From contig JABTUP010000007.1 of assembly GCA_015075325.1 (NCBI GenBank), positions 62,001 to 126,000 of the forward strand: 64,000 bases of DNA, written 5' to 3'. This document shows, one piece after another, positions 14,074 to 26,934 of the stretch. Made by a program: the position numbers and the translations under genes. The notes below the pieces were generated by a model. That model searched no databases. It had not been told where the DNA came from and was given only the letters and a program-made list of their open reading frames with translations. Within the stretch, counting starts at the first letter, position 1. Each line of letters begins with the position of its first letter. This stretch comes from Flavobacteriales bacterium (lineage in GTDB: Bacteria; Bacteroidota; Bacteroidia; Flavobacteriales_E; Vicingaceae).

Positions 14074-15777
14074 CTAAAATTGGAAATAGATAAATGCTTG
14101 CAACTCTGACGACATGGCTTGATAAACACCAAAAACAGTAAGTACAGCTACAAGTATTTTAACCGGAATAGGCGAAAAAATAAACTTTTCTTTATACCAA
14201 GTTTTGGTTTTTGAAGGCAACCAGTGTATTGCAAAGCCAATAGCAGTAAGAAAAAATACCATTTTGTAATTCGAAATAATTTCGGGTATTAAATCTAATC
14301 TAAAGTTGGATTTAATTTGAGCAAGAATTTGCCAAGTAATTTCCATGTTTGAAGCTCTAAACCAAATTCGAGTAAAGGTGATGAATGTTAAAGTAACAAA
14401 TACTTTAAAGCCAATAGCTAAGAAGTTGTTATACTTTTCGTAAGGGCTAATTTTTTTCCATAGTTTATAAACCATTAATCCTAAACCGTTTAATCCGCCC
14501 CAAAATACAAAGTTCCAGCTTGCTCCGTGCCATAATCCACCAAGCAACATGGTAATTAAAAGGTTTATATTGGTTACTAACCATTCCTTAAACGATTTTA
14601 TCCAAAGAGCTAAAAAAATCATTAATAACGCTAACCAAATAAAAATATAAAGCACCATCATTTTTCCAGATAGCAGCACAACAAAAGCAATAATAATAAT
14701 AGCTGTTATCCAAGTTCCCCAGCTTCCACCTCGGTTTCCTCCAAGAGGAATGTATAAATAATCTCTTAACCAAGTAGATAAACTCATGTGCCAACGTTTC
14801 CAAAATTCACCAACATTTTTTGCTTTGTATGGCGAGTTAAAGTTTACAGGCAATGTAAATCCCATTAAAATTGCTAAACCTATTGCCATATCGGTATAAC
14901 CCGAAAAATCGGCATAAACTTGAAGTGAGTAGGCGTAAAGAGCCATTAAGTTTTCAAATCCAGTGTACATCATCGGATTTTGAAAAATTCGGTCGATAAA
15001 ATTAACAGCAATGTAATCGCCTATTACTACTTTTTTAATTAAACCATTTAAAATCCAAAAAAATGCTAATCCAAATTGGTAATGAGTTAATCGGTAGGGT
15101 TGGTACAATTGAGGAATAAATTCTGAAGCTCGAACAATTGGACCAGCAACCAATTGAGGAAAAAACGATACGAAAAAGCCAAAATCGACAATGTTTTTTA
15201 CAGGAGCTATTTGTTTGCGGTAAATATCAACCGAATAACTGATGGTTTGAAAAGTATAAAAGGAAATACCAACAGGGAGTAAAATTTTATCGACAGTAAA
15301 ATGAGTGCCAGCAATATTATTGGCAAATTGTGCAAAATGATTAAATACTTGAATATCGGTATTAAAAATGGTGTTGTAAGAATCGGTAAAGAAATAGGCA
15401 TATTTAAAGTAACAAAGCACAAATAGATTAACGAATATACTTGTTGCAACTAGTAGTTTACGTTTTAATTCGCTCTTGCTAGTATAAATACTTTTACCAA
15501 TAAAATAATCGAGAATAGTAGAAAAGATTAATATACTGATGAATAAACCACTGGTTTTGTAATAAAAGAATAAACTTACAAGAAATAAAAATGCGTTTCG
15601 TAGTGCATTTTTTTTGTAAACAATAGAATAAATAGAAAGAACAATTGCAAAAAATCCCCAGAAGAAAAACTGAGTAAAAATTAACGGTTGAGTTTCGTTG
15701 TAAAGGAAAATACCTTTTAGGTTTTCTAAACTAAAAAACCACGAAAACCAATTGATTATGTTAAAACTACTTTCCAA
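14074..15777 (-). CDS. MBOAT-family membrane O-acyltransferase (AlgI/PatA-like)
   Basis: 567 residues with about ten or more membrane helices. The MBOAT signatures are present: GEFWKRWHMSLSTWLRDYLY with IPLGGNRGG, and the invariant catalytic His417 in LLGGLWHGASWNF. Proteins of this type (AlgI, DltB, PatA) move acyl groups, usually acetyl, across the inner membrane to an extracytoplasmic acceptor. The start is TTG 15777, overlapping the upstream HAD stop by 11 bp. It is the last gene of a five-gene operon with two SGNH hydrolases, the usual periplasmic partners of MBOAT proteins, so envelope-polymer O-acetylation is the likely role; the polymer is unknown. Confidence 0.88.
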   Translation of the reverse strand: MESSFNIINWFSWFFSLENLKGIFLYNETQPLIFTQFFFWGFFAIVLSIYSIVYKKNALRNAFLFLVSLFFYYKTSGLFISILIFSTILDYFIGKSIYTSKSELKRKLLVATSIFVNLFVLCYFKYAYFFTDSYNTIFNTDIQVFNHFAQFANNIAGTHFTVDKILLPVGISFYTFQTISYSVDIYRKQIAPVKNIVDFGFFVSFFPQLVAGPIVRASEFIPQLYQPYRLTHYQFGLAFFWILNGLIKKVVIGDYIAVNFIDRIFQNPMMYTGFENLMALYAYSLQVYADFSGYTDMAIGLAILMGFTLPVNFNSPYKAKNVGEFWKRWHMSLSTWLRDYLYIPLGGNRGGSWGTWITAIIIIAFVVLLSGKMMVLYIFIWLALLMIFLALWIKSFKEWLVTNINLLITMLLGGLWHGASWNFVFWGGLNGLGLMVYKLWKKISPYEKYNNFLAIGFKVFVTLTFITFTRIWFRASNMEITWQILAQIKSNFRLDLIPEIISNYKMVFFLTAIGFAIHWLPSKTKTWYKEKFIFSPIPVKILVAVLTVFGVYQAMSSELQAFIYFQF

Positions 15778-16420
15778 AATTTAAACTATTTAGTTGAGTT
15801 AAACTTCTGATATTAAAATCGGCAATATTAAAATTTGGGTTATCCCAATTTTCGTTATCGGGTACAACAATTGTTTTCATAAGTGCAGCTTTTGCAGCGA
15901 TTAATCCGTTAAACGAATCTTCTATAACCAAACAGTTTACTGGTTTTGTATTTAAGTCTTGAGCTGTTTTAATAAACACCATTGGGTGAGGTTTACCAAA
16001 ATCTAAATGCTCGGCAGAATTAATTACATCAAAGTATTGTTTTAGCTGAAGTTTTTGCAGCACTGTTTCAATTAAACTCATTGCCGATGATGATGCTAAG
16101 GCTAATTTAACCCCTTTGTTTTTAAAATATTCTAGCGAACTGTAAACACCATCCATAGCTTCACCTTTTTCAATAATCAGTTGAGTAACTGTGGCAAGAA
16201 GCTCTTCTTCAATTTGTTTTAATGATTTTTCTTCCCAACCTAATTTGTCATACCAATATTCTACCACTTCGTACAAACGCATGCCCATGGTTTCTCTACA
16301 CATGTCGTCAGTAAAATGTAAACCAACGGTTTTAAATGTAATTTTTTCGGCTTCTCTCCACAAAGGTTCTGAGTCGATAATTACCCCATCCATATCATAT
16401 ATAACTGCATCAATTTTCAA
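15767..16420 (-). CDS. HAD-superfamily phosphatase (beta-phosphoglucomutase-like)
   Basis: About 217 residues. HAD motif I is DMDGVIIDSEP with both aspartates; motif II Ser is in LALASSSAM; the motif III Lys is in DFGKPHPMVF and motif IV is IEDSFNGLIAAKAA. The cap position matches subclass I enzymes such as 2-deoxyglucose-6-phosphatase (YniC) or beta-phosphoglucomutase. I chose TTG 16420 because it gives MKIDAVIYDMDG, the usual family start, and an 11-bp overlap like the other junctions of this operon; an ATG at 16453 would add 11 residues and overlap the upstream gene by 44 bp. Its link to envelope acylation is unclear. Confidence 0.82.
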   Translation of the reverse strand: MKIDAVIYDMDGVIIDSEPLWREAEKITFKTVGLHFTDDMCRETMGMRLYEVVEYWYDKLGWEEKSLKQIEEELLATVTQLIIEKGEAMDGVYSSLEYFKNKGVKLALASSSAMSLIETVLQKLQLKQYFDVINSAEHLDFGKPHPMVFIKTAQDLNTKPVNCLVIEDSFNGLIAAKAALMKTIVVPDNENWDNPNFNIADFNIRSLTQLNSLNFGK

Positions 16421-17660
16421 TGTTCTTTGTTTTAATAGATACAAATCTTGCATATTCTTTCATTAATGCAGAAAACATTAAATCTCCGATTAATTCGTAA
16501 CCTGCAGTTTTAAAATGAACACGGTCTTTTTGTGCTAATCCATTTTTTTCCCATGTTTTAATAGAGCCTAATCCTCCCATAATGGTAAACAAATCCCAAT
16601 AACCTGCTTTATGTTTTTTTGCAAGGTTTTGCATGGCTGTTTGAACCTCAAAAGCACGTTTGTTTAAGTATCGTTTTTTATAATAGCTATCGGTATTGGT
16701 AACAAATAAAAACTCACAGTTTGGGTTTGCTTCTTTAATTTTAGAAACTAACAAATTGTAATTGTTTTCAAAACATTTTGCACAAAATCCGGGTTCAAAC
16801 GCATCGTTTATTCCAATACAAAAAATGACCAAATCTGGTTTTATGGTTTTGATTTGTGGTGTAAAAAGTTGATTGCGAAGGTAGCTAGAAGTGCTTGCTC
16901 CATTTACTCCAATAGAATGATAAACAATACCGTTGTCATTGTTTTCAAGGCTTAAACCGTATAAATTAAAGTGAGTTTGAAGGAAGTCGGTTTTATAAAT
17001 TCTAAATGCTAATTTTTCGTGGTGTTTATTAAATTTAAACTCGGTATAACCTAATTCCTCATTTACATCAATTGATATTAGGGAAGTGTCTGAAACCAAT
17101 TCTAAACAAAAACTAGAAGAATCGGTATCGTGAAAAACTTTAATGGTGTTGAAATCATAAAAAGGAGTGTCATCGCCTTTAAACTCGAGTTGAAAAGTAG
17201 AAATGCTATCGGTTGTGGTGGCTGTAATTCCTGAAACGCCCCATGTACTTTGGTGTTTGGTAATGGCATTTCGGTAACCATTCCATTCGCCAGTGTAAGT
17301 TACATTATAATAATAAGGGTTATTGGTTTTTGCTAATTTAAATGGAAAGATAAAACCTCTTCCACCGTTTAAATTAAAATTATTATGGAAATTTTTACGC
17401 ATTCGATGCGACCATATATCAGCCTGAACGTGAGAACCACCAAACTGCATGATGTTGATTTTTCCTTTTCCTGAAGTAACCAACGAATCAAATTTTGAAT
17501 AGAAGTTAGAAAATGATAAATTGTTTTCAAAAAAATGAATCGAATTGGAATCGTAATTAACAAATGGATATTGCTTAATAACATGTGGGTTTGATTGTCC
17601 TTTAATCAAAGACAGAAAAAGAAATAGGTATATAAAAAGGTTTATATTTTTAATTTTCAT
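16410..17660 (-). CDS. Periplasmic SGNH/GDSL hydrolase 1
   Basis: 416 residues with a signal peptide (about 1-22). SGNH blocks: block I FGGSHVQADIW (Ser nucleophile, about 75), block II GVNGASTSS, block III FCIGINDAF with the catalytic-site Asn, and block V DRVHFKTAGY with the Asp-His pair. Between blocks I and II is a jelly-roll-like beta insert of about 150 residues, a layout shared with PatB/AlgX-type O-acetyltransferases. It starts at ATG 17660, overlapping SGNH 2 by 11 bp. It is likely the periplasmic acetyl acceptor or esterase working with the MBOAT protein; the direction of the reaction cannot be read from sequence. Confidence 0.83.
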   Translation of the reverse strand: MKIKNINLFIYLFLFLSLIKGQSNPHVIKQYPFVNYDSNSIHFFENNLSFSNFYSKFDSLVTSGKGKINIMQFGGSHVQADIWSHRMRKNFHNNFNLNGGRGFIFPFKLAKTNNPYYYNVTYTGEWNGYRNAITKHQSTWGVSGITATTTDSISTFQLEFKGDDTPFYDFNTIKVFHDTDSSSFCLELVSDTSLISIDVNEELGYTEFKFNKHHEKLAFRIYKTDFLQTHFNLYGLSLENNDNGIVYHSIGVNGASTSSYLRNQLFTPQIKTIKPDLVIFCIGINDAFEPGFCAKCFENNYNLLVSKIKEANPNCEFLFVTNTDSYYKKRYLNKRAFEVQTAMQNLAKKHKAGYWDLFTIMGGLGSIKTWEKNGLAQKDRVHFKTAGYELIGDLMFSALMKEYARFVSIKTKNIEN

Positions 17661-19137
17661 TTGTTAAAGAATTGGGTTGTGTGTTTCCTGTAATTTCTTT
17701 ATTGGGAGAAAGTTCCCCTCCTTCGGAGGGGCTAGGGGAGGCTTTTATGCCTTTATATTCTTTATACATATTCATTAGATTGAGATAAAACTCTTCACCA
17801 ATTTTTCGAGCACCAAGCGGACTAAAATGGATATAATCTGAGGCAGCCAATGGAGGTTGGGCATTAACCCATGTTGGCATGGAGTTTTTGCCTCCCATTA
17901 CCTCATACATGTCCCAAAACAAGCAATTGGTAGATAAAGCTGCATCTCTTAAAGCATCTCTAACATCTTCTAAATTTGGATAAGTTACGTATTCTGTTTT
18001 TTCTTTAATTGACATGTCGCCAGGGCCTATTACAATAAAAGCTGCATTAGGGTTTAATCGTTTTAAAAATGAAATTTGTGCTTTAAACCAATTGCCATAT
18101 TCTTTTGCTCCTTTTTCGTCTTTTATGTATGGCATTACGTTTCCGCCAAATTCAAGAATAATTAAATCGGGATTTAGGTTTGCATACATGTTGCTAAGCA
18201 TGGTGTGATCGAGCTGGCTAAATACTGTTCCTGAAGACCCTCGTAAAGCAATGTTGTCGGCAACAACCCCTGTATTTCCTTCTAACGATAAACCTAAAAT
18301 ATTTGGACTGTCTTTACCTTCAAAAGAAATGGTAATTTCTTCTGGAGTGGTATTAAAATGAGCTGTTATAACATCAAAAGGAGTATTGGCATCAATTGTT
18401 CCATTTTTTACAACAACATTATCGGCTAGTATTACATAGTTTACTGCAGCATGTGTATTACTTAAAAAAATATGTAATTGCTGATAACTTTTGGTTCTTC
18501 CAAAAGATGCGGTTGGTTTTCTTAATTTAATCCAGCCATGGTGATAAGAGGTGTCGCTAACAACAGTAGCATCCGAAATAGGAGCATAACGGCAAAAACT
18601 CAATAAAGCACCATATTTGTTGTGTTTCACTTCGGGCGATTTTTGTCCAAAACCCGAATACCTTTTCCAATTATCAGAATAAGAAATGTTTACGCTCATT
18701 TTGGGTGCTACATCAATAACCGAAAACAAACCAACGCCATATCCTCCAAATTTTAGTTGAAGTTCGTTTCTAAAATAAGAAGTAATTCGGTCGGCTTCTA
18801 TTTGCGAATCGCCATAATGCATAATTCGCACTTTTTTGTTTTGAGCATTATCTAAGGCATCAAAAAATCGATGAAGAGCAGGTTTGGCAACATTTGTTAT
18901 TTGTATGGTTTTTCTATATTCGTGTAGCGAATCGAGTTTGTGGTTTATTATTGCAGAATCAATTTCAGAAATTACAACAGTACTATCAAAAATTTCCGAT
19001 AAGTCTTTTTCGTTCACTTGGTTTTCTTCAACTTTTACGGCAAAAAAATCGCGGTAAGTTGGAAATTCAATAGTAGTAGCTCCAATTGAAATACCTTTTT
19101 CGGGGAAAACAACTAAAACAATACCTAAAATAGCCAT
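17650..19137 (-). CDS. Membrane-anchored SGNH/GDSL hydrolase 2
   Basis: At least 495 residues. Block I is MHYGDSQIEADRITS, block II LRGSSGTVFS, block III ILEFGGNVMPY, and block V SDYIHFSPLGARKIG; a beta-rich insert separates blocks I and II. It is a paralogue-like partner of SGNH 1. From ATG 19137 only about 12 hydrophobic residues form the N-terminal anchor. The open frame continues upstream with a full helix and a lysine-rich cytoplasmic tail to a possible ATT start at 19215 preceded by AGGA. The C-terminus carries an alien KASPSPSEGGELSP stretch encoded by an interspersed repeat. The next gene overlaps by 11 bp. Confidence 0.8.
   Translation of the reverse strand: MAILGIVLVVFPEKGISIGATTIEFPTYRDFFAVKVEENQVNEKDLSEIFDSTVVISEIDSAIINHKLDSLHEYRKTIQITNVAKPALHRFFDALDNAQNKKVRIMHYGDSQIEADRITSYFRNELQLKFGGYGVGLFSVIDVAPKMSVNISYSDNWKRYSGFGQKSPEVKHNKYGALLSFCRYAPISDATVVSDTSYHHGWIKLRKPTASFGRTKSYQQLHIFLSNTHAAVNYVILADNVVVKNGTIDANTPFDVITAHFNTTPEEITISFEGKDSPNILGLSLEGNTGVVADNIALRGSSGTVFSQLDHTMLSNMYANLNPDLIILEFGGNVMPYIKDEKGAKEYGNWFKAQISFLKRLNPNAAFIVIGPGDMSIKEKTEYVTYPNLEDVRDALRDAALSTNCLFWDMYEVMGGKNSMPTWVNAQPPLAASDYIHFSPLGARKIGEEFYLNLMNMYKEYKGIKASPSPSEGGELSPNKEITGNTQPNSLTNEN
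17715..17741 (+). repeat. Interspersed palindromic repeat inside a coding end
   Basis: CCCCTCC-TTC-GGAGGGG (17715-17731) followed by GCTAGGGGAGG. This GC-rich unit is of a type often scattered in Bacteroidota genomes (recollection, not searched). It encodes the odd C-terminal tail of SGNH 2. Confidence 0.6.
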
Positions 19138-19193: not shown

Positions 19194-20606
19194 CTATTTC
19201 TTCTTGATTTTTAATACTTGTCCTATTTTTATATTTTCGTCAATATTATTCAATTCCATGATGTCTTCGGCTGAAACACCAGGATAATTTTTAGCAATAT
19301 CCCATAAGTTATCACCCGATTTTACGGTATAAAGAATCATTTCTGATTGTTGGTTATTGGTAGCTGGTTTTTGGCTATTGGTTGCAGGTTTCTTGTTGCT
19401 GTATATTATTAATTGCTGACCAATGTTAATGGTTGTACCTTTTAACTTATTCCATTCTTGAATTTCGCTAATTTTTACACCATATTTTTCGGCAATTTTA
19501 CCCAGCACATCTCCCGATTTAACTTGATGAATAATTTCCTCATTTGTAGTTGAAATGGTTTCTACATCTTCTTTTTCTTCAATAGTTGAATCAATTTTAG
19601 GTTTATTAATTAAAGAATCTTGATAGAAATAAATGGAATCGCAAAATTGATTGATTTTACAGGCTGTATTTTTTGGAACAATAGCAATGTAATTTGAAGG
19701 AAATACCTCATCAATAATGCTAGGGTTAAGAAATTGCAGTTCTTTTTTGTTTAAATTAACTACATCTAAAATGGCTTTATAGCTAAGTTTATTTTCTACC
19801 AAAAAAGTATCGGCTTCAATAATTGGATTTAGCTCAATCATGTTGCTGTTGTTTTGTGTGTAGGAATAGAGTAACGCACTAAAAGCAGGAACAACATCTC
19901 TTGTTTTTGGATTTAAATAAGGGTAAAGCTTCCAATAATCGGTTGATTGGTTTCGCTGAATTAAATTGTTGATGTTGTTTGGCCCAGCAACAAATGCTGC
20001 AAGAGTTAAGTCCCAGTTTTGATAATTTAATTGTAAATGCTTTAAATAAGCAATTGCGGCTTTTGATGATTTAGAAAAATCTCGTCGTTCGTCAATGTAT
20101 TCGTTTATGTTTAAACCAAATTTAATGGCTTGAGGATAGTTTAAGTGCCAGTAACCTTCGCCTCCAGAGGTGTTAGATGAATACGGATTAAATCCTGATA
20201 ATATTGCAGGAAGTAATATTAATTCTTCTGGAAGTTGTTGTTTTTTTAATTCAGCACGAATTTCTGATGCACGAAAATTGATGATGTAGTTTAAAAAGTG
20301 CTGATTTATACTTTGGCTGTACAACTTTATAAATTCGTGTACTTCGGGTTTATAAGTTAGCGGAATTGTTATTTCAACTGATTTTAATAAACTATCGCCA
20401 AAGAGTGGGTTAAACGGTTTTGTTGACGAAACATGTTCTAAAATTGAATCGGTATTTAAGGTAGATTTTTGAAAAAGCATACGGGTATATTCATTTTCCA
20501 TTAGGTTTTCAAATTGCTTAACATAAACCGATTTTTCGATGTTTGGCTGTTGACCAAAAACGATGTAATAGCTTAGTGTAAACGTGATGAAAAATAAAAA
20601 TCGCAA
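19194..20606 (-). CDS. Degenerate MltD-like transglycosylase with two LysM domains
   Basis: 470 residues with a signal peptide (about 1-19). An SLT-like domain (about 115-240) follows the MltD pattern LPEELILLPAILSGFNP, then GYWHLNYPQAIKFGL and AAFVAGPNNI. Two LysM peptidoglycan-binding modules end the protein (about 350-395 and 425-470, with VKSGDVLGKIAEKYGV and VKSGDNLWDIAKNYPGV). At the position of the catalytic Glu (IES in active enzymes) there is Leu136, and the AYNxG motif is altered. It is probably a peptidoglycan-binding scaffold and not an enzyme. It is the first gene of the acyltransferase operon and overlaps the next reading frame. Confidence 0.82.
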   Translation of the reverse strand: MRFLFFITFTLSYYIVFGQQPNIEKSVYVKQFENLMENEYTRMLFQKSTLNTDSILEHVSSTKPFNPLFGDSLLKSVEITIPLTYKPEVHEFIKLYSQSINQHFLNYIINFRASEIRAELKKQQLPEELILLPAILSGFNPYSSNTSGGEGYWHLNYPQAIKFGLNINEYIDERRDFSKSSKAAIAYLKHLQLNYQNWDLTLAAFVAGPNNINNLIQRNQSTDYWKLYPYLNPKTRDVVPAFSALLYSYTQNNSNMIELNPIIEADTFLVENKLSYKAILDVVNLNKKELQFLNPSIIDEVFPSNYIAIVPKNTACKINQFCDSIYFYQDSLINKPKIDSTIEEKEDVETISTTNEEIIHQVKSGDVLGKIAEKYGVKISEIQEWNKLKGTTINIGQQLIIYSNKKPATNSQKPATNNQQSEMILYTVKSGDNLWDIAKNYPGVSAEDIMELNNIDENIKIGQVLKIKKK

Positions 20607-20723: not shown

Positions 20724-23700
20724 TTATTTTTTTCTTTTCTGAAAGGTAAGTTCGTAGGTTGTTCCTGTTTTATTGTCAAGAAGTTTAATTTCTCCATCGA
20801 GTTGTTCGGTAAATACTTTAATAAGCTCTATTCCTAAGCTTTCACTATCTCCTTCAAATCGATCTCTCGACATACCAATTCCATTATCGCCTATTTTAAG
20901 TACAAATTTGTCGTTCTCATTTTTGGATAAATAAACAGAAATAATTCCTTTGTCTTTTCCAATAAACCCATACTTTAATGTGTTGGAAATAATTTCATTA
21001 ATTAATAAACCTAATGGAATAATCGTGTCAATATCAAATTTAGTGTGGTCAACAATTTTAATGTCGAGGAAAATATCACAGTTTATGGAATAAGTTGCAA
21101 TTAAATCGTTGGTTAATGAAACAATGTAATCCTGAAAATCAATGTTTGCTAAATCGCCTGTTTGGTACATTTTTTCGTGAATAAGAGCCATGGAACGGAT
21201 TCTATTTTTTGCTTCATCAAAAAGAGCTAATGATTTTTCGTCATTGGTATAATTAGATTGTAAACTAAGCAAGCTATTAATTACTTGCATGTTGTTTTTA
21301 ACTCGATGATGAATTTCTTTAAGGAGAATTTCTTTTTCATCGCGTTGTTGTTCTATTAACATGGTTCTTTCTCGCACTTTTCGTTCGAGTTCGAGGCTAA
21401 TTTTACGTTGTCGTCTTTCTTTTATCGACGATAGTTGAATGAATAAATAAACCAAACCAATAAAAGCTACTAAATAAAACCACCAAGTTTGCCAAAATGG
21501 AGTTTCAATGGTAAAAGAATAGGAGATGGGTTCGTTGGTCCATATTCCGTCATTGTTTCGTGCTTTTAATAAAAATTTATATTCACCAGGAGGTAAGTTG
21601 GAGTAGGTTACCGATGTTTTTTGTGTGTTTTTATACCAATCTTTATCAAAAGGTTCTAGTTTAAAACTGTATTGAACATATTCGGGATTGGTTAGGTTAA
21701 TTGCAGAATATTCAAAAGTAACATGGTTTTGATTGTGTTTTAGAACCAGTTTTTTTGGCAAATTTGTCCAAGGTTCAAAGTCTTTGGTAACATTCCCCCA
21801 ATTTACATCTTCTAAAAAGAGTTTAATGTTGTCAATACGAGCTGTTGGCTGAAAAACATTGGTTCTATCTTCTTTTGGGTTGTATTTTATTAACCCTTTA
21901 ATGGTTCCAAACCAAATGTTGTTTTTCTCGTCTTTATAAACCGCTCGCGAATTACATTCGATGCCTTTAAAACCTTCGTATAAGCCATAGTTTTTGATTT
22001 GTTCAATTTGACCGTAACTGTTTAAACTAATTTTGTTAACTCCATTATTGGTTCCAACCCAAATGTTTTTATTTCCATCGTTTAAAAGTAAATATATGGT
22101 GTTTGAAGAAAGTCCTTGGTTGGTCGTAATTGATTTAAAATCAACTCCATCGTATTTTACAACGCATCGGTCTGTTCCAAACCAAATGTTACCAAAATCA
22201 TCTTCGGTAATAGAGCCAATGTAGGTATTGCAAATAGTAGTTGAACCAATGTAATTATGGAATTGACCGTTTGAAAATCTGTTTATTCCGTTTCCTGTTC
22301 CTAGCCAAATGTTTCCTTTTTTATCTTCCAAAATGGAATGGATATAATTATGTGTTAAACCATCTTTTTCGGTGTAATTAATAAATTTATTTTCTTTTAA
22401 AACACTTAATCCTCCTCCTGAAGTTCCAATCCAAAGGTTTTGGTTTTTATCAAACATTAACGAACGAATTTTATTGGTTGGCAATCCATTGGCTGTTGTG
22501 TAAGTTGAAAATTTATTGTTTTCGTATTTCGTTAAACCATTGTTGGTTGCAAACCAAATAGCATTGTTTTTATCTTTAACTATAGCTCTTACTTCGTTGC
22601 CACCCATTCCGTTTGATGCATTAAAGTGTGTCACCGTTTTTCCATCGTACCTAAAAACACCTTCATCTCCTGTGGCTACCCAAATATTGTTTTGGTCAAC
22701 AACAATTCCAAAAATGCTGGAGTTGTTTAATCCATTTACATTATCGAAGTAAGTAAATGCTTTGTTGCCAAGTTTAACCAATCCATGTCCATTGGTTCCA
22801 ATCCATAAGTTGCCCGATTTATCTTTAAACAGATGGGTTAAATTATTGGTTGGAAGTCCGTTTTCTTTGGTAATGTGTATAATCTCCCCGTCAACATCAA
22901 TAGCGTACAATCCATCATTAGCTGTTGCAATTAAAGTGTTTTTATCTCTATCGGTTTTTATTGAAGTAACAACAATATTGGGATTTATATTTATTGGGTT
23001 GAATACAAATTGACGTTTATTGTCAATACTTCCTCTTAATAATTTAACAACGCCACTTCGGTGTGTACCAATAATGTAATTTCCGTCAATATCTTCGTGA
23101 ACATAGGTAATAAAGTTTGAAGGAAGTCCGTCTTTTTCAGTAATTAAAAGCGTATCTGTTCCATTTATATAAAGTAAACCTTCAATGGTTGAAATCCATA
23201 AATTTCCTTTGCTATCTTCTAATAGTTGCGAAATAGATGCTTTTATGTGTTTACTGATGTTGGTTGATATTTTCTTGAAAATACCATTGCTGTAATAATA
23301 AAGGTTTTTATCGTTGGTAATGTAAATTGTACCTTTAGAGTCGGTATAAATTGATTCTTGACCGTTTATTTCAGTATTGTTTTCGTACTTGTTGTAAATG
23401 GTAAATTTTCGACCGTCAAATTTTGTAACTCCACCCCAGGTTGAGGTAAACCAAATGTTTGCATCTTTATCCTCGGTAATGTCGGTTACAATGTCTCCTG
23501 CAATTCCATCTTTTGAAGAATATTGAGTAAAATTTTTGCCATCGAATTTACAAATACCTCCACCAGCTGTAGCAATCCATAAAAAGCCACGAGAATCTTG
23601 AAAAATTGCATTTACTTTTGATTGTGGCAATCCTTCTTGAACATTAAAAAATTGAAAATTGAAAGTTTGGGCAATAGTTAAATTGCTTGTAATAGTCATG

Positions 23701-23756
23701 CAAAGCAGACCAAGCACCAAATAAAATAAACGAGTATGTAAGTAGTTAAAAATCAA
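20724..23756 (-). CDS. Propeller-type sensor histidine kinase
   Basis: 1010 residues. A signal segment (about 1-30) precedes about 14 two-component-regulator propeller repeats (30-640, with blades like GNLWIGTNGHGLVKL), then a Y_Y_Y immunoglobulin-like domain (about 690-760), one membrane helix (about 770-790), a short coiled coil, a HisKA_2-type dimerisation domain with phospho-His in EIHHRVKNNMQVINSLL, and an ATPase domain (NEIISNTLKYGF, GDNGIGMS). It is a periplasmic-sensing kinase like the hybrid polysaccharide sensors, but lacks receiver and AraC output domains, so it must signal to a separate regulator not found nearby. It follows SUI1 by 34 bp. Confidence 0.88.
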   Translation of the reverse strand: MIFNYLHTRLFYLVLGLLCMTITSNLTIAQTFNFQFFNVQEGLPQSKVNAIFQDSRGFLWIATAGGGICKFDGKNFTQYSSKDGIAGDIVTDITEDKDANIWFTSTWGGVTKFDGRKFTIYNKYENNTEINGQESIYTDSKGTIYITNDKNLYYYSNGIFKKISTNISKHIKASISQLLEDSKGNLWISTIEGLLYINGTDTLLITEKDGLPSNFITYVHEDIDGNYIIGTHRSGVVKLLRGSIDNKRQFVFNPININPNIVVTSIKTDRDKNTLIATANDGLYAIDVDGEIIHITKENGLPTNNLTHLFKDKSGNLWIGTNGHGLVKLGNKAFTYFDNVNGLNNSSIFGIVVDQNNIWVATGDEGVFRYDGKTVTHFNASNGMGGNEVRAIVKDKNNAIWFATNNGLTKYENNKFSTYTTANGLPTNKIRSLMFDKNQNLWIGTSGGGLSVLKENKFINYTEKDGLTHNYIHSILEDKKGNIWLGTGNGINRFSNGQFHNYIGSTTICNTYIGSITEDDFGNIWFGTDRCVVKYDGVDFKSITTNQGLSSNTIYLLLNDGNKNIWVGTNNGVNKISLNSYGQIEQIKNYGLYEGFKGIECNSRAVYKDEKNNIWFGTIKGLIKYNPKEDRTNVFQPTARIDNIKLFLEDVNWGNVTKDFEPWTNLPKKLVLKHNQNHVTFEYSAINLTNPEYVQYSFKLEPFDKDWYKNTQKTSVTYSNLPPGEYKFLLKARNNDGIWTNEPISYSFTIETPFWQTWWFYLVAFIGLVYLFIQLSSIKERRQRKISLELERKVRERTMLIEQQRDEKEILLKEIHHRVKNNMQVINSLLSLQSNYTNDEKSLALFDEAKNRIRSMALIHEKMYQTGDLANIDFQDYIVSLTNDLIATYSINCDIFLDIKIVDHTKFDIDTIIPLGLLINEIISNTLKYGFIGKDKGIISVYLSKNENDKFVLKIGDNGIGMSRDRFEGDSESLGIELIKVFTEQLDGEIKLLDNKTGTTYELTFQKRKK

Positions 23757-23790
23757 TTTTTTTTAATTCTGAAAAGTAGAAACTTTTATT

Positions 23791-24138
23791 TTATCCACCC
23801 ATTTTTTTTGTTTTAGAATACCCTAAACTTATTAACAAATCAAAAACTTTATCTTTCAACTCACCTTGAATTAATATTTCCCCATCTTTTGCATTTCCAC
23901 CAACACCGCATCTGGTTTTTAGTGTTTTTGCTAAATCAGTTAAATCATCATCATTACCAATAAAACCCGAAACTATTGTTACGGATTTTCCCTTACGTTG
24001 TTTCCTATCTATACTAACTTTTAGTTGTTGTTGCTGTTTATCAAGCGTTTCAATGTCATCATGTTCTTCTTCGTCGTAGCTAAAGTTTGGGTTGGTAGAA
24101 TACACAACATTAACTCTTTGTTTTTCTTTTTTACTCAT
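23791..24138 (-). CDS. SUI1/eIF1-like translation factor (YciH family)
   Basis: 115 residues. A charged N-terminal tail (about 1-40) is followed by the compact SUI1 fold: RKGKSVTIVSGFIGND, the helix LTDLAKTLKTRCGVGG with the conserved Cys-Gly, and GEILIQGELKDKVFDLLISLGY. Bacterial YciH proteins resemble eIF1 and can affect start-codon fidelity in vitro; their physiological role is not settled. Its ATG overlaps the end of the lipid-kinase gene by 8 bp. Confidence 0.88.
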   Translation of the reverse strand: MSKKEKQRVNVVYSTNPNFSYDEEEHDDIETLDKQQQQLKVSIDRKQRKGKSVTIVSGFIGNDDDLTDLAKTLKTRCGVGGNAKDGEILIQGELKDKVFDLLISLGYSKTKKMGG

Positions 24139-25009
24139 AAGTAATTACATTTAGCGAAAGTGGTAAAATTTCTAAATCGATGTTTTTATCAGTTAGAACA
24201 GGCTCTCCATCAACGTGCATGGTGTTTTCTGGAGACAAAATACGTGCTTTACTCACCCTTATTTCTTCTACAAATTTACTTGAAGTTATTTTCTTGGTAA
24301 ACAATTTAATAGCTAAAGGAATGGCATCGAGTAACGAAAATTTCTTTAAAATGACAATGCTAAACCAACCATCATCGATTATTGAATGAGGAGAAATAAA
24401 AGCGTTGTTTCCGTATTGATTGGAATTAGCAAATGTGATTAAGAAAGCTGTTTTATTTACTGTTTTTCCATCATAAGTAAGTTCGTAGGTTTTTTCTTTG
24501 TAGCTAAAAAATTCTTTTATCGAAATTTTTAGATAGGTCATAAATCCTCGTTTACTTGCATTTGCAAACAAATAACTGATGTGTGCATCAAAACCAATAC
24601 CTGCAGCACCTAAAAAATAAGTGTCGTTTAGTTTTACTGTGTCAATTTTTTTTGAGGTGAGTTTATTGAGGTTTAAAATGGCATTTTTGGTGTTCATCGG
24701 TATCAACAAATGTCGAGCTAAACCATTGCCTGAGCCCATTGGTATAATTCCTAAAATGGTGTTGGTGTTAATTAATCCTAAACCCACTTCGTGAACAGTT
24801 CCATCGCCACCCACAGCTACAATAACTTTAAAATTGGCAGATTCTTGTTTAGCAATTTCGGTGGCATGAAGCGGATATTCGGTGTGTTTTACAGTATAGT
24901 TGAATTTTGTTAAATCTAAATTTTCTTTAATGAGTTGTTCAACACCACTTTTTTTTACCGTTCCAGAAATGGGGTTGATGATGAATAATATGTTTGTTTT
25001 TTCAATCAT
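24131..25009 (-). CDS. Diacylglycerol kinase-family lipid kinase
   Basis: 292 residues with the DAGK catalytic fold: N-terminal INPISGT, the nucleotide loop VVAVGGDGTVHEVGLGL, and IPMGSGNGLARHL, with the C-terminal beta domain holding HVDGEPV. This is the soluble DgkB/YegS-type kinase that phosphorylates diacylglycerol or a related lipid. Its ATG shares a nucleotide with the stop of the LtaS-like gene (TAATG), a translational-coupling signature. In Gram-positives DgkB recycles the diacylglycerol released by LtaS, so the pairing is meaningful. Sphingosine or undecaprenol kinases are alternatives. Confidence 0.87.
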   Translation of the reverse strand: MIEKTNILFIINPISGTVKKSGVEQLIKENLDLTKFNYTVKHTEYPLHATEIAKQESANFKVIVAVGGDGTVHEVGLGLINTNTILGIIPMGSGNGLARHLLIPMNTKNAILNLNKLTSKKIDTVKLNDTYFLGAAGIGFDAHISYLFANASKRGFMTYLKISIKEFFSYKEKTYELTYDGKTVNKTAFLITFANSNQYGNNAFISPHSIIDDGWFSIVILKKFSLLDAIPLAIKLFTKKITSSKFVEEIRVSKARILSPENTMHVDGEPVLTDKNIDLEILPLSLNVITYE

Positions 25010-26934
25010 TATTTTGTTGTAGTTAATGAAGTTTTGTTGTTTATCAGTCGGTTGTTGTATTGTTGTAAAATGGCTTTTAGTTTTGTTTCGAGAGTATTTT
25101 TTTGGTTCACAAAATTTAGTGAATCTATTTTATTGTTGAGCATCAACGAATCGGTTGATAAATCAAACAATCCCGAACTTTTTTCGCCATCATACAATAA
25201 AATTAAGCTGTCTTGAGCTAAAAAGTAGGTGTTTCTGGCAAATCCAACAAAATGTTTTTTGTTATCAAAAAATGCATCGCTACCAAATGAAACGATGCTT
25301 GTATTAATTCCTAACAAACTTAAAACGGTTGGGGTAATGTCGGTATGTTGAAAATAGTTGTTGTTTTTACCTTTTAGTGTACCCGATGCATCATAAATAA
25401 AAATTGGAATAGCATTATTTCCAATAAAAGTTGAATACGTTGGATTTAAAGTAGTGGAAGAGTGGTCGGAAGTAAAAACAAAAATGGTGTTTTTAAACCA
25501 ATCCATTTTTTTAGAAATTTCAAAAAATTGCTTTAAAGCAAAATCGGTGTACGAAATGGTTTTGTGAATAGGAAGTTCGCCTTCAGCAAATGTATTTTTA
25601 TATTTTTCAGGAACTTGAAAAGGGTGGTGCGATGAAAGGGTGAAAATGGTACTAAAAAAAGGAGTTTTCTTTTTAGTTAATTCGGCAGAGAAATAATTTA
25701 AATAAGGTTCGTCGGCAATTCCCCATGCACCATCGTCGTCATTTTTGTGTGGATATTCATTTTTGCCATAATATTCATCAATTCCTGCAGTTGCAGTAAA
25801 TCCACTAAAACCCATGGTGCCATTATTTCCACCATGATAAAAAGAAGTGTTATAACCTGCTGTTTTTAATATTGCCGGAAGTGCATCAATTTTATTTGCC
25901 GAATAGTTTGATATGATATAAGGAGTGTTCATTAATGGCGGAATTCCAGCAAAAATAGATGGCAGCGATTCAATAGACCTGTTTCCGCTCGAATAAGCGT
26001 TGGTAAAAACATAACTTTCGTTCATCAACGAATCTAAAAATGGAGTATAGCCTTTGCCATTGTTAAAAAATCCGACATACTCTTTGGCAAAACTTTCTAA
26101 AATTACGATTACCACATTTTTTTTATTCGGTTTAATTGTGGGTTTTATAGTTGTTTCTGGATTATAAATGGAAACGAGTTGGCTTTCCTCAAAATAATTC
26201 AAAAGCTTAAGTTGGTCGTTTAAAACGGTTTTAATAATGCTAAAAGGCGTGTTTAATACAATGGGAATGTTTTTAGCCGTTGCATAATTGGCAGCATTAA
26301 TAATATCTATAGGTTTAAACTGAATTCCTCCTCTAAAACCAACCACTGTTAACGCACTAAACAAAAGCAAAAATAACAGCTGAATACCTCTCGTTTTTAA
26401 AGTAAATGGTTCTGTTTTTAGTTCGTGTTTGCTTTTGTTAAACAGCCATTCGCTAAACCCAATTAATGCAATTAAAATCAAAAATAAATACCAATAATCT
26501 ACCATGTATTGTGGCAATAATACAAGCACATCGTTTCCGGTGCCTAAAAATTGAAACAAATCGGCTGTACTTCTTTTTAACGAATATTGAAAATATCCAA
26601 CATCAATTAAATTGAGTACAATACCCAACGTATTGCCCAAATGAAAACTTGATTTTAACACTAATTGATAGCCTTTTTTGTACTTAAACGATACAGGAAG
26701 CAGAGCAAAAAAGGTAAAAGGAACAAAAAGATAAGCAACGGCTAAATAATCGAATCGAATACCGTAAATGAAAACAGCGAATGGTACAGGTTCGTTAAAA
26801 TTAGAGAGGTTAAACAAAAAAAAGAGTAACCGACAGATTGTAAAGACTAAAAAAGCAATTCCAATCTGTTTTAAATAGGAAATGAGGTATGAATAATTAA
26901 AATTCAACGTGCTTTTTAGTTTGACATTCCACAA
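25009..26934 (-). CDS. LtaS-like membrane sulfatase/phosphoglycerol transferase
   Basis: About 641 residues: five membrane helices (about 15-210) and a large periplasmic alkaline-phosphatase-fold domain. Metal-site features include VVIVILESFAKEYVG (first Glu), the nucleophile region SSGNRSIESLPSIFAG, and VFTSDHSS (Asp-His). In this family the enzyme transfers phosphoglycerol or phosphoethanolamine from a phospholipid to an envelope acceptor, releasing diacylglycerol. There is no ATG: TTG 26934 or TTG 26907 are the candidates; the first overlaps the small membrane-protein gene by 19 bp. Downstream it is coupled to a lipid kinase. Confidence 0.83.
   Translation of the reverse strand: MWNVKLKSTLNFNYSYLISYLKQIGIAFLVFTICRLLFFLFNLSNFNEPVPFAVFIYGIRFDYLAVAYLFVPFTFFALLPVSFKYKKGYQLVLKSSFHLGNTLGIVLNLIDVGYFQYSLKRSTADLFQFLGTGNDVLVLLPQYMVDYWYLFLILIALIGFSEWLFNKSKHELKTEPFTLKTRGIQLLFLLLFSALTVVGFRGGIQFKPIDIINAANYATAKNIPIVLNTPFSIIKTVLNDQLKLLNYFEESQLVSIYNPETTIKPTIKPNKKNVVIVILESFAKEYVGFFNNGKGYTPFLDSLMNESYVFTNAYSSGNRSIESLPSIFAGIPPLMNTPYIISNYSANKIDALPAILKTAGYNTSFYHGGNNGTMGFSGFTATAGIDEYYGKNEYPHKNDDDGAWGIADEPYLNYFSAELTKKKTPFFSTIFTLSSHHPFQVPEKYKNTFAEGELPIHKTISYTDFALKQFFEISKKMDWFKNTIFVFTSDHSSTTLNPTYSTFIGNNAIPIFIYDASGTLKGKNNNYFQHTDITPTVLSLLGINTSIVSFGSDAFFDNKKHFVGFARNTYFLAQDSLILLYDGEKSSGLFDLSTDSLMLNNKIDSLNFVNQKNTLETKLKAILQQYNNRLINNKTSLTTTK

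Follow-up and report, generated by a model that had tools for sequence, protein, structure and literature searches.

The window, the 64,000-nucleotide stretch of Vicingaceae DNA analysed here, encodes on its reverse strand an MltD-like SLT-LysM-LysM protein that has no catalytic Glu (19194..20606). Our analysis suggests that this protein, a member of the MltD lineage that appears to be dead for catalysis, probably serves as a non-catalytic, peptidoglycan-binding partner of the adjoining Ape1-like protein, SGNH2, within a cluster for O-acetylation and de-O-acetylation of the wall. Behind this reading stand a conserved loss of the Glu, selection on the Glu-less gene, its linkage to SGNH2, an Ape1-like model of SGNH2, and a shuttle motif in the MBOAT of the same cluster. 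The partner may act as an adaptor or as an activator.

The protein is 470 aa long, counted from a TTG start, and its N-terminus is hydrophobic and signal-like, without a lipobox Cys. Pfam places an SLT domain (PF01464, 50.1 bits against a cut-off of 21.3) at residues 116-226 (19929..20261, reverse strand) and finds a LysM pair (100.2 bits, in two stretches), with the first LysM domain at about residues 358-402 (19401..19535, reverse strand) and the second at residues 426-468 (19203..19331, reverse strand). The same scan found no LytM (peptidase M23) domain in this protein. P. aeruginosa MltD is the top PDB match of the structure model (pLDDT 79.5), with a Z score of 19.4 over 245 residues, and both this match and the Pfam score indicate an SLT fold. 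What sets the protein apart from MltD enzymes is the IES motif, from which the catalytic Glu is missing. In alignments, Leu136, encoded by TTA at 20199..20201 (reverse strand), lines up with Glu125 of E. coli K-12 MltD and, in the P. aeruginosa enzyme (PDB 8rhe), with the Glu of VIESAYNP. The E125A and E125K mutants of E. coli MltD have been described as catalytically inactive (PMC10931528). Both groove motifs are lost as well, with AFVAG in place of AYNxG and YWHL (20142..20153, reverse strand) where the LWQF of GLWQF is expected. The original prediction had read the Leu at the Glu site, the two altered groove motifs and the two LysM domains from the letters of the window, and the domain scan and the alignments, including that to the MltD structure, bear it out on each point. 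These comparisons strongly support the assignment of the window protein as a catalysis-dead member of the MltD lineage.

The gene next to it, SGNH2 (17650..19137, reverse strand), occupies the Ape1b position and carries GDSQ, GGN and DxxH motifs; its frame is open to 19239, and the true start may lie upstream of 19137. Besides its sequence matches, the structure model of SGNH2 (pLDDT 80) matches Ape1 of C. jejuni (8gkd, 8gld) and the O-acetylesterase 4k3u, which we take to be Ape1 of N. meningitidis, with E values of about 1e-20 and TM scores of 0.76-0.83 on the target, and these Ape1 entries lie far ahead of the next structure match. SGNH2 could be a transferase instead of an esterase. SGNH1 (16410..17660, reverse strand), in the Ape1c position, likewise matches Ape1 structures by sequence. 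It is fused to MBOAT in family f12, and we propose that it is a PatB-like partner of MBOAT. Family match and motifs identify the MBOAT itself (14074..15777, reverse strand) as PatA/DltB-like, with the His of GGLWHG and a C-terminal FIYFQF that matches the FXYXXF acyl-Tyr shuttle motif. Among 108 MBOAT ORFs, the WHG motif is present in 105 and the FIYFQF ending in 92. Having the MBOAT His, FXYXXF and Ape1-like SGNH proteins upstream of pat, the SLT, SGNH2, SGNH1 and MBOAT set is, judged by its sequences, an O-acetyl-peptidoglycan (OAP) type cluster, and the wall of the window organism would be O-acetylated.

The same arrangement of two Ape1-like SGNH genes followed by MBOAT is seen in the OAP clusters of Bacteroides and Porphyromonas, where SGNH2-SGNH1-MBOAT corresponds to ape1b-ape1c-pat; in Bacteroides, which has this gene order, O-acetylated peptidoglycan has been measured (PMC1199599). 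The upstream gene there, however, encodes a putative cation-efflux transporter (PMC1199599), whereas the window has the dead SLT-LysM protein. The PatA/PatB acyltransferases (PMC12148441) also combine an MBOAT that has a C-terminal FXYXXF with an SGNH partner, but in the window there are two SGNH proteins, both of which best match Ape1 structures in the searches run.

Two further features of these neighbours can be recorded. A HAD-family hydrolase ORF (15767..16453, reverse strand, identified by Pfam) lies between SGNH1 and MBOAT and overlaps both; it is a conserved neighbour in many Vicingaceae and is kept in that family save at L057 and L058 and in genus g6. Block I of SGNH1 reads GGSH, with the Asp of GDS changed to Gly, in the readable clusters with a Glu-less SLT, apart from one with GASH; where the SLT is Glu+, GDSH is mostly retained. 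We asked whether this GDS-to-GGS change is paired with the loss of the Glu and rejected the idea, as GGSH is also found in most SLT-less clusters (26 loci).

Homologues were gathered by a class-wide profile search and by a separate SGNH2-seeded search, from which 60 clusters were read, and the Glu was scored. Glu-less SLT genes adjoin SGNH2 at 63 loci (62 and the window, duplicates included), with one more at a contig end and none elsewhere, and wherever the flanks could be read the Glu-less gene immediately precedes SGNH2 and runs in the same direction. Glu+ SLT-LysM genes are distributed differently: 32 are adjacent to SGNH2, 8 are near it and 50 are elsewhere, and all 50 of these unlinked genes keep the Glu. 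The difference in adjacency between Glu-less and Glu+ genes gives a Fisher p of 1e-12 on dereplicated rows, which are not phylogenetically independent. At the 60 SGNH2-seeded loci, a Glu-less SLT stands beside SGNH2 in 19 and a Glu+ SLT in 4, and none was detected in 37, the last figure being an upper bound that includes contig-end cases. Ten upstream ORFs of SLT-less clusters, most of them unrelated genes, contained no SLT or LysM domain by Pfam, which argues against divergent SLTs having been overlooked. Related clusters thus often contain a Glu+ SLT (at 32 loci) or have none detected (37 of the 60), and the dead SLT is not required by the cluster everywhere.

Which member of the cluster is the partner? 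The original prediction was that the protein binds peptidoglycan and positions the acyltransferase, that is, that it is a scaffold by which the acetyltransferase in its entirety (MBOAT, SGNH1 and SGNH2) is anchored to peptidoglycan and acetylation is directed to the wall. Glu-less homologues do occur beside MBOAT genes, as the four-gene order is conserved in most loci, and PatB has no wall-binding domain (PMC12148441), a lack for which a LysM subunit could compensate. The genomes of genus g6 and of family f53 are arranged differently, however: MBOAT, and in most of them SGNH1 as well, is found on a separate contig or at a distance of tens of kilobases, yet the SLT gene and SGNH2 are still adjacent. 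Conversely, SGNH1 and MBOAT form a single ORF of about 940-970 aa in eight loci of family f12 (L243, L246, L254, L262, L263, L265, L268 and L269). Together, the relocations and the fusions point to two modules, SLT-SGNH2 and SGNH1-MBOAT. Because the SLT-SGNH2 pairing survives the loss of MBOAT from the locus, and the fusions tie SGNH1 to MBOAT, we take SGNH2 and not the acyltransferase to be the likely partner. Furthermore, the model of SGNH2 is Ape1-like, and Ape1 has a CBM35 of its own with which to recognise peptidoglycan; this too sits poorly with a scaffold for the acetyltransferase. The original prediction therefore needs correction here, in that the invariant neighbour is SGNH2; we regard the scaffold as unlikely and partnership with SGNH2 as the more likely of the two.

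A precedent for partnership with SGNH2 comes from Neisseria, in which LtgA binds Ape1 in a complex and raises its activity on a substrate that LtgA does not use (PMC7083599). In both cases an LT-fold protein is paired with an Ape1 esterase, but LtgA is active and a different SLT protein, whereas the LT of the window is dead and its gene is linked to SGNH2, from which a complex is proposed. By analogy, the SLT-LysM protein would be exported and held on glycan strands by its two LysM domains, and perhaps by the dead groove too, and would bind SGNH2, stabilising it or placing it on the strands. SGNH2 so placed would remove (or move) MurNAc acetyl groups at chosen sites, and SGNH1 and MBOAT, being PatB- and PatA-like, would add them. 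Loss of the Glu would permit the strand to be bound without being cut, and the LT-Ape1 partnership known from Neisseria would here be separated from cutting. More tentatively, we put forward the possibility that dead LTs form a family across the class Bacteroidia whose members serve specifically as one subunit of an Ape1-like complex, in which the ex-catalytic groove may serve as a strand reader that chooses the sites of de-O-acetylation, with the LT-Ape1 link uncoupled from cutting.

Alternatively, the protein could be a reader of glycan or an inhibitor, its dead domain competing with active LTs for strand ends and shielding acetylated wall without direct contact with SGNH2. That the SLT and LysM modules are retained and selected would suit such a role, as would the active-type paralogues that coexist in the same genomes. 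However, it leaves the constant adjacency to SGNH2 unexplained, and we consider it improbable.

The Glu is missing from all Vicingaceae orthologues found (about two dozen genomes), in which L or C occupies the site and G[YF]WHL is kept in most; the orthologues at L026 and L027 differ in having VLS with GLWQL. In the distant family members at L189, L191 and L194, the site holds A or L. The source genome, which named relatives with the same locus place in the Vicingaceae (Flavobacteriales), has four SLT genes, and the paralogue on contig C34 retains the Glu. The original prediction had already discounted a single sequencing error; a sequencing or assembly error is ruled out by the loss of Glu in all family orthologues found, alongside the Glu of the C34 paralogue in the same genome. 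On a wider scale, all 41 dereplicated Glu-less proteins have L, C, A, I or M at the Glu site and keep the Ser that follows, and 71 of 71 Glu+ relatives carry Glu at the catalytic position. The dN/dS of the SLT domain is 0.05-0.18 in the measurable pairs, and the Glu-less gene is under purifying selection. The motif region reaches the same degree of conservation, 0.69, in Vicingaceae and in active relatives.

If another acid had taken over from the Glu, for example residue 199 near the AYN helix, then the protein could be a still-active or altered enzyme. The SLT core is strongly conserved, and acids are enriched, albeit not invariant, at positions 199, 237 and 271 of the Glu-less proteins; at residue 199 an acid is present in 63% of them, against 7% of Glu+ proteins. 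Yet no replacement acid is fixed in the motif of the Glu-less branch, the invariant acids of which are only those common to active enzymes, and the groove Gln and Asn are likewise lost in most Glu-less proteins. With the inactivity of the E125A and E125K mutants of E. coli MltD (PMC10931528), this makes an altered enzyme very unlikely. The conserved loss of Glu, Gln and Asn, the purifying selection, the separate branch and the lack of a conserved substitute acid in the motif instead favour the pseudoenzyme that was first predicted. Loss of catalytic residues might also be expected of a decaying pseudogene or an assembly error, but ORFs that are intact in many genomes, low dN/dS and conserved synteny leave that explanation a negligible chance.

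Glu-less proteins occur in 11 Bacteroidia family codes (f1, f5, f9, f13, f15, f24, f29, f31, f51, f52 and f53). In a tree of 112 rows with the motif columns excluded, they make up one side of a branch with an SH-aLRT of 98; after long rows were dropped, again with the motif columns excluded, the branch had support of 94/90 and was present in 93% of bootstrap trees. Repeated independent losses of the Glu are therefore not favoured, although the apparent single-branch origin rests partly on long branches, which limit the inference. We also considered whether the dead SLT derives from the Glu+ SLTs now beside OAP clusters; this is unsupported, since the cluster-linked Glu+ SLTs do not group together but are interspersed with unlinked ones (10 changes). 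A plasmid search returned only distant relatives, with 27-32% identity among the matches listed.

The window protein shares the SLT fold and LysM domains with the MltD family (E. coli; P. aeruginosa, PDB 8rhe, 8rhf and 8rhi), but it lacks the catalytic Glu, the motif Gln, the AYN Asn and the lipobox Cys, and its gene is tied to an Ape1-like cluster. A dead hydrolase domain that regulates wall enzymes is the principle of the degenerate LytM factors, such as DipM of Caulobacter (PMC10336132), although the fold (LytM versus SLT) and the partners differ. In a limited search of the openly licensed literature, we found no report of inactive or pseudo lytic transglycosylases beside Ape1 or OAP genes, nor of any branch of lytic transglycosylases conserved as pseudoenzymes. 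The finding bears on how the enzymes of O-acetylation and de-O-acetylation find their sites on the wall, PatB being without a wall-binding domain (PMC12148441). A natural, selected and apparently catalysis-free LT fold that is locked to an Ape1-like gene allows a test of whether the LT-Ape1 link is structural or catalytic.

Two minor observations concern related sequences and the wider locus. One relative has a second MltD-like match (G044:C15:207804-209084) with one in-frame TAA inside. Upstream of the cluster and on the same strand, the genes at 20724-26934, which presumably encode a sensor-like protein, a small conserved protein, a diacylglycerol-kinase-like protein and an LTA-synthase-like protein, are arranged in the same order next to the cluster in many genomes of the Vicingaceae.
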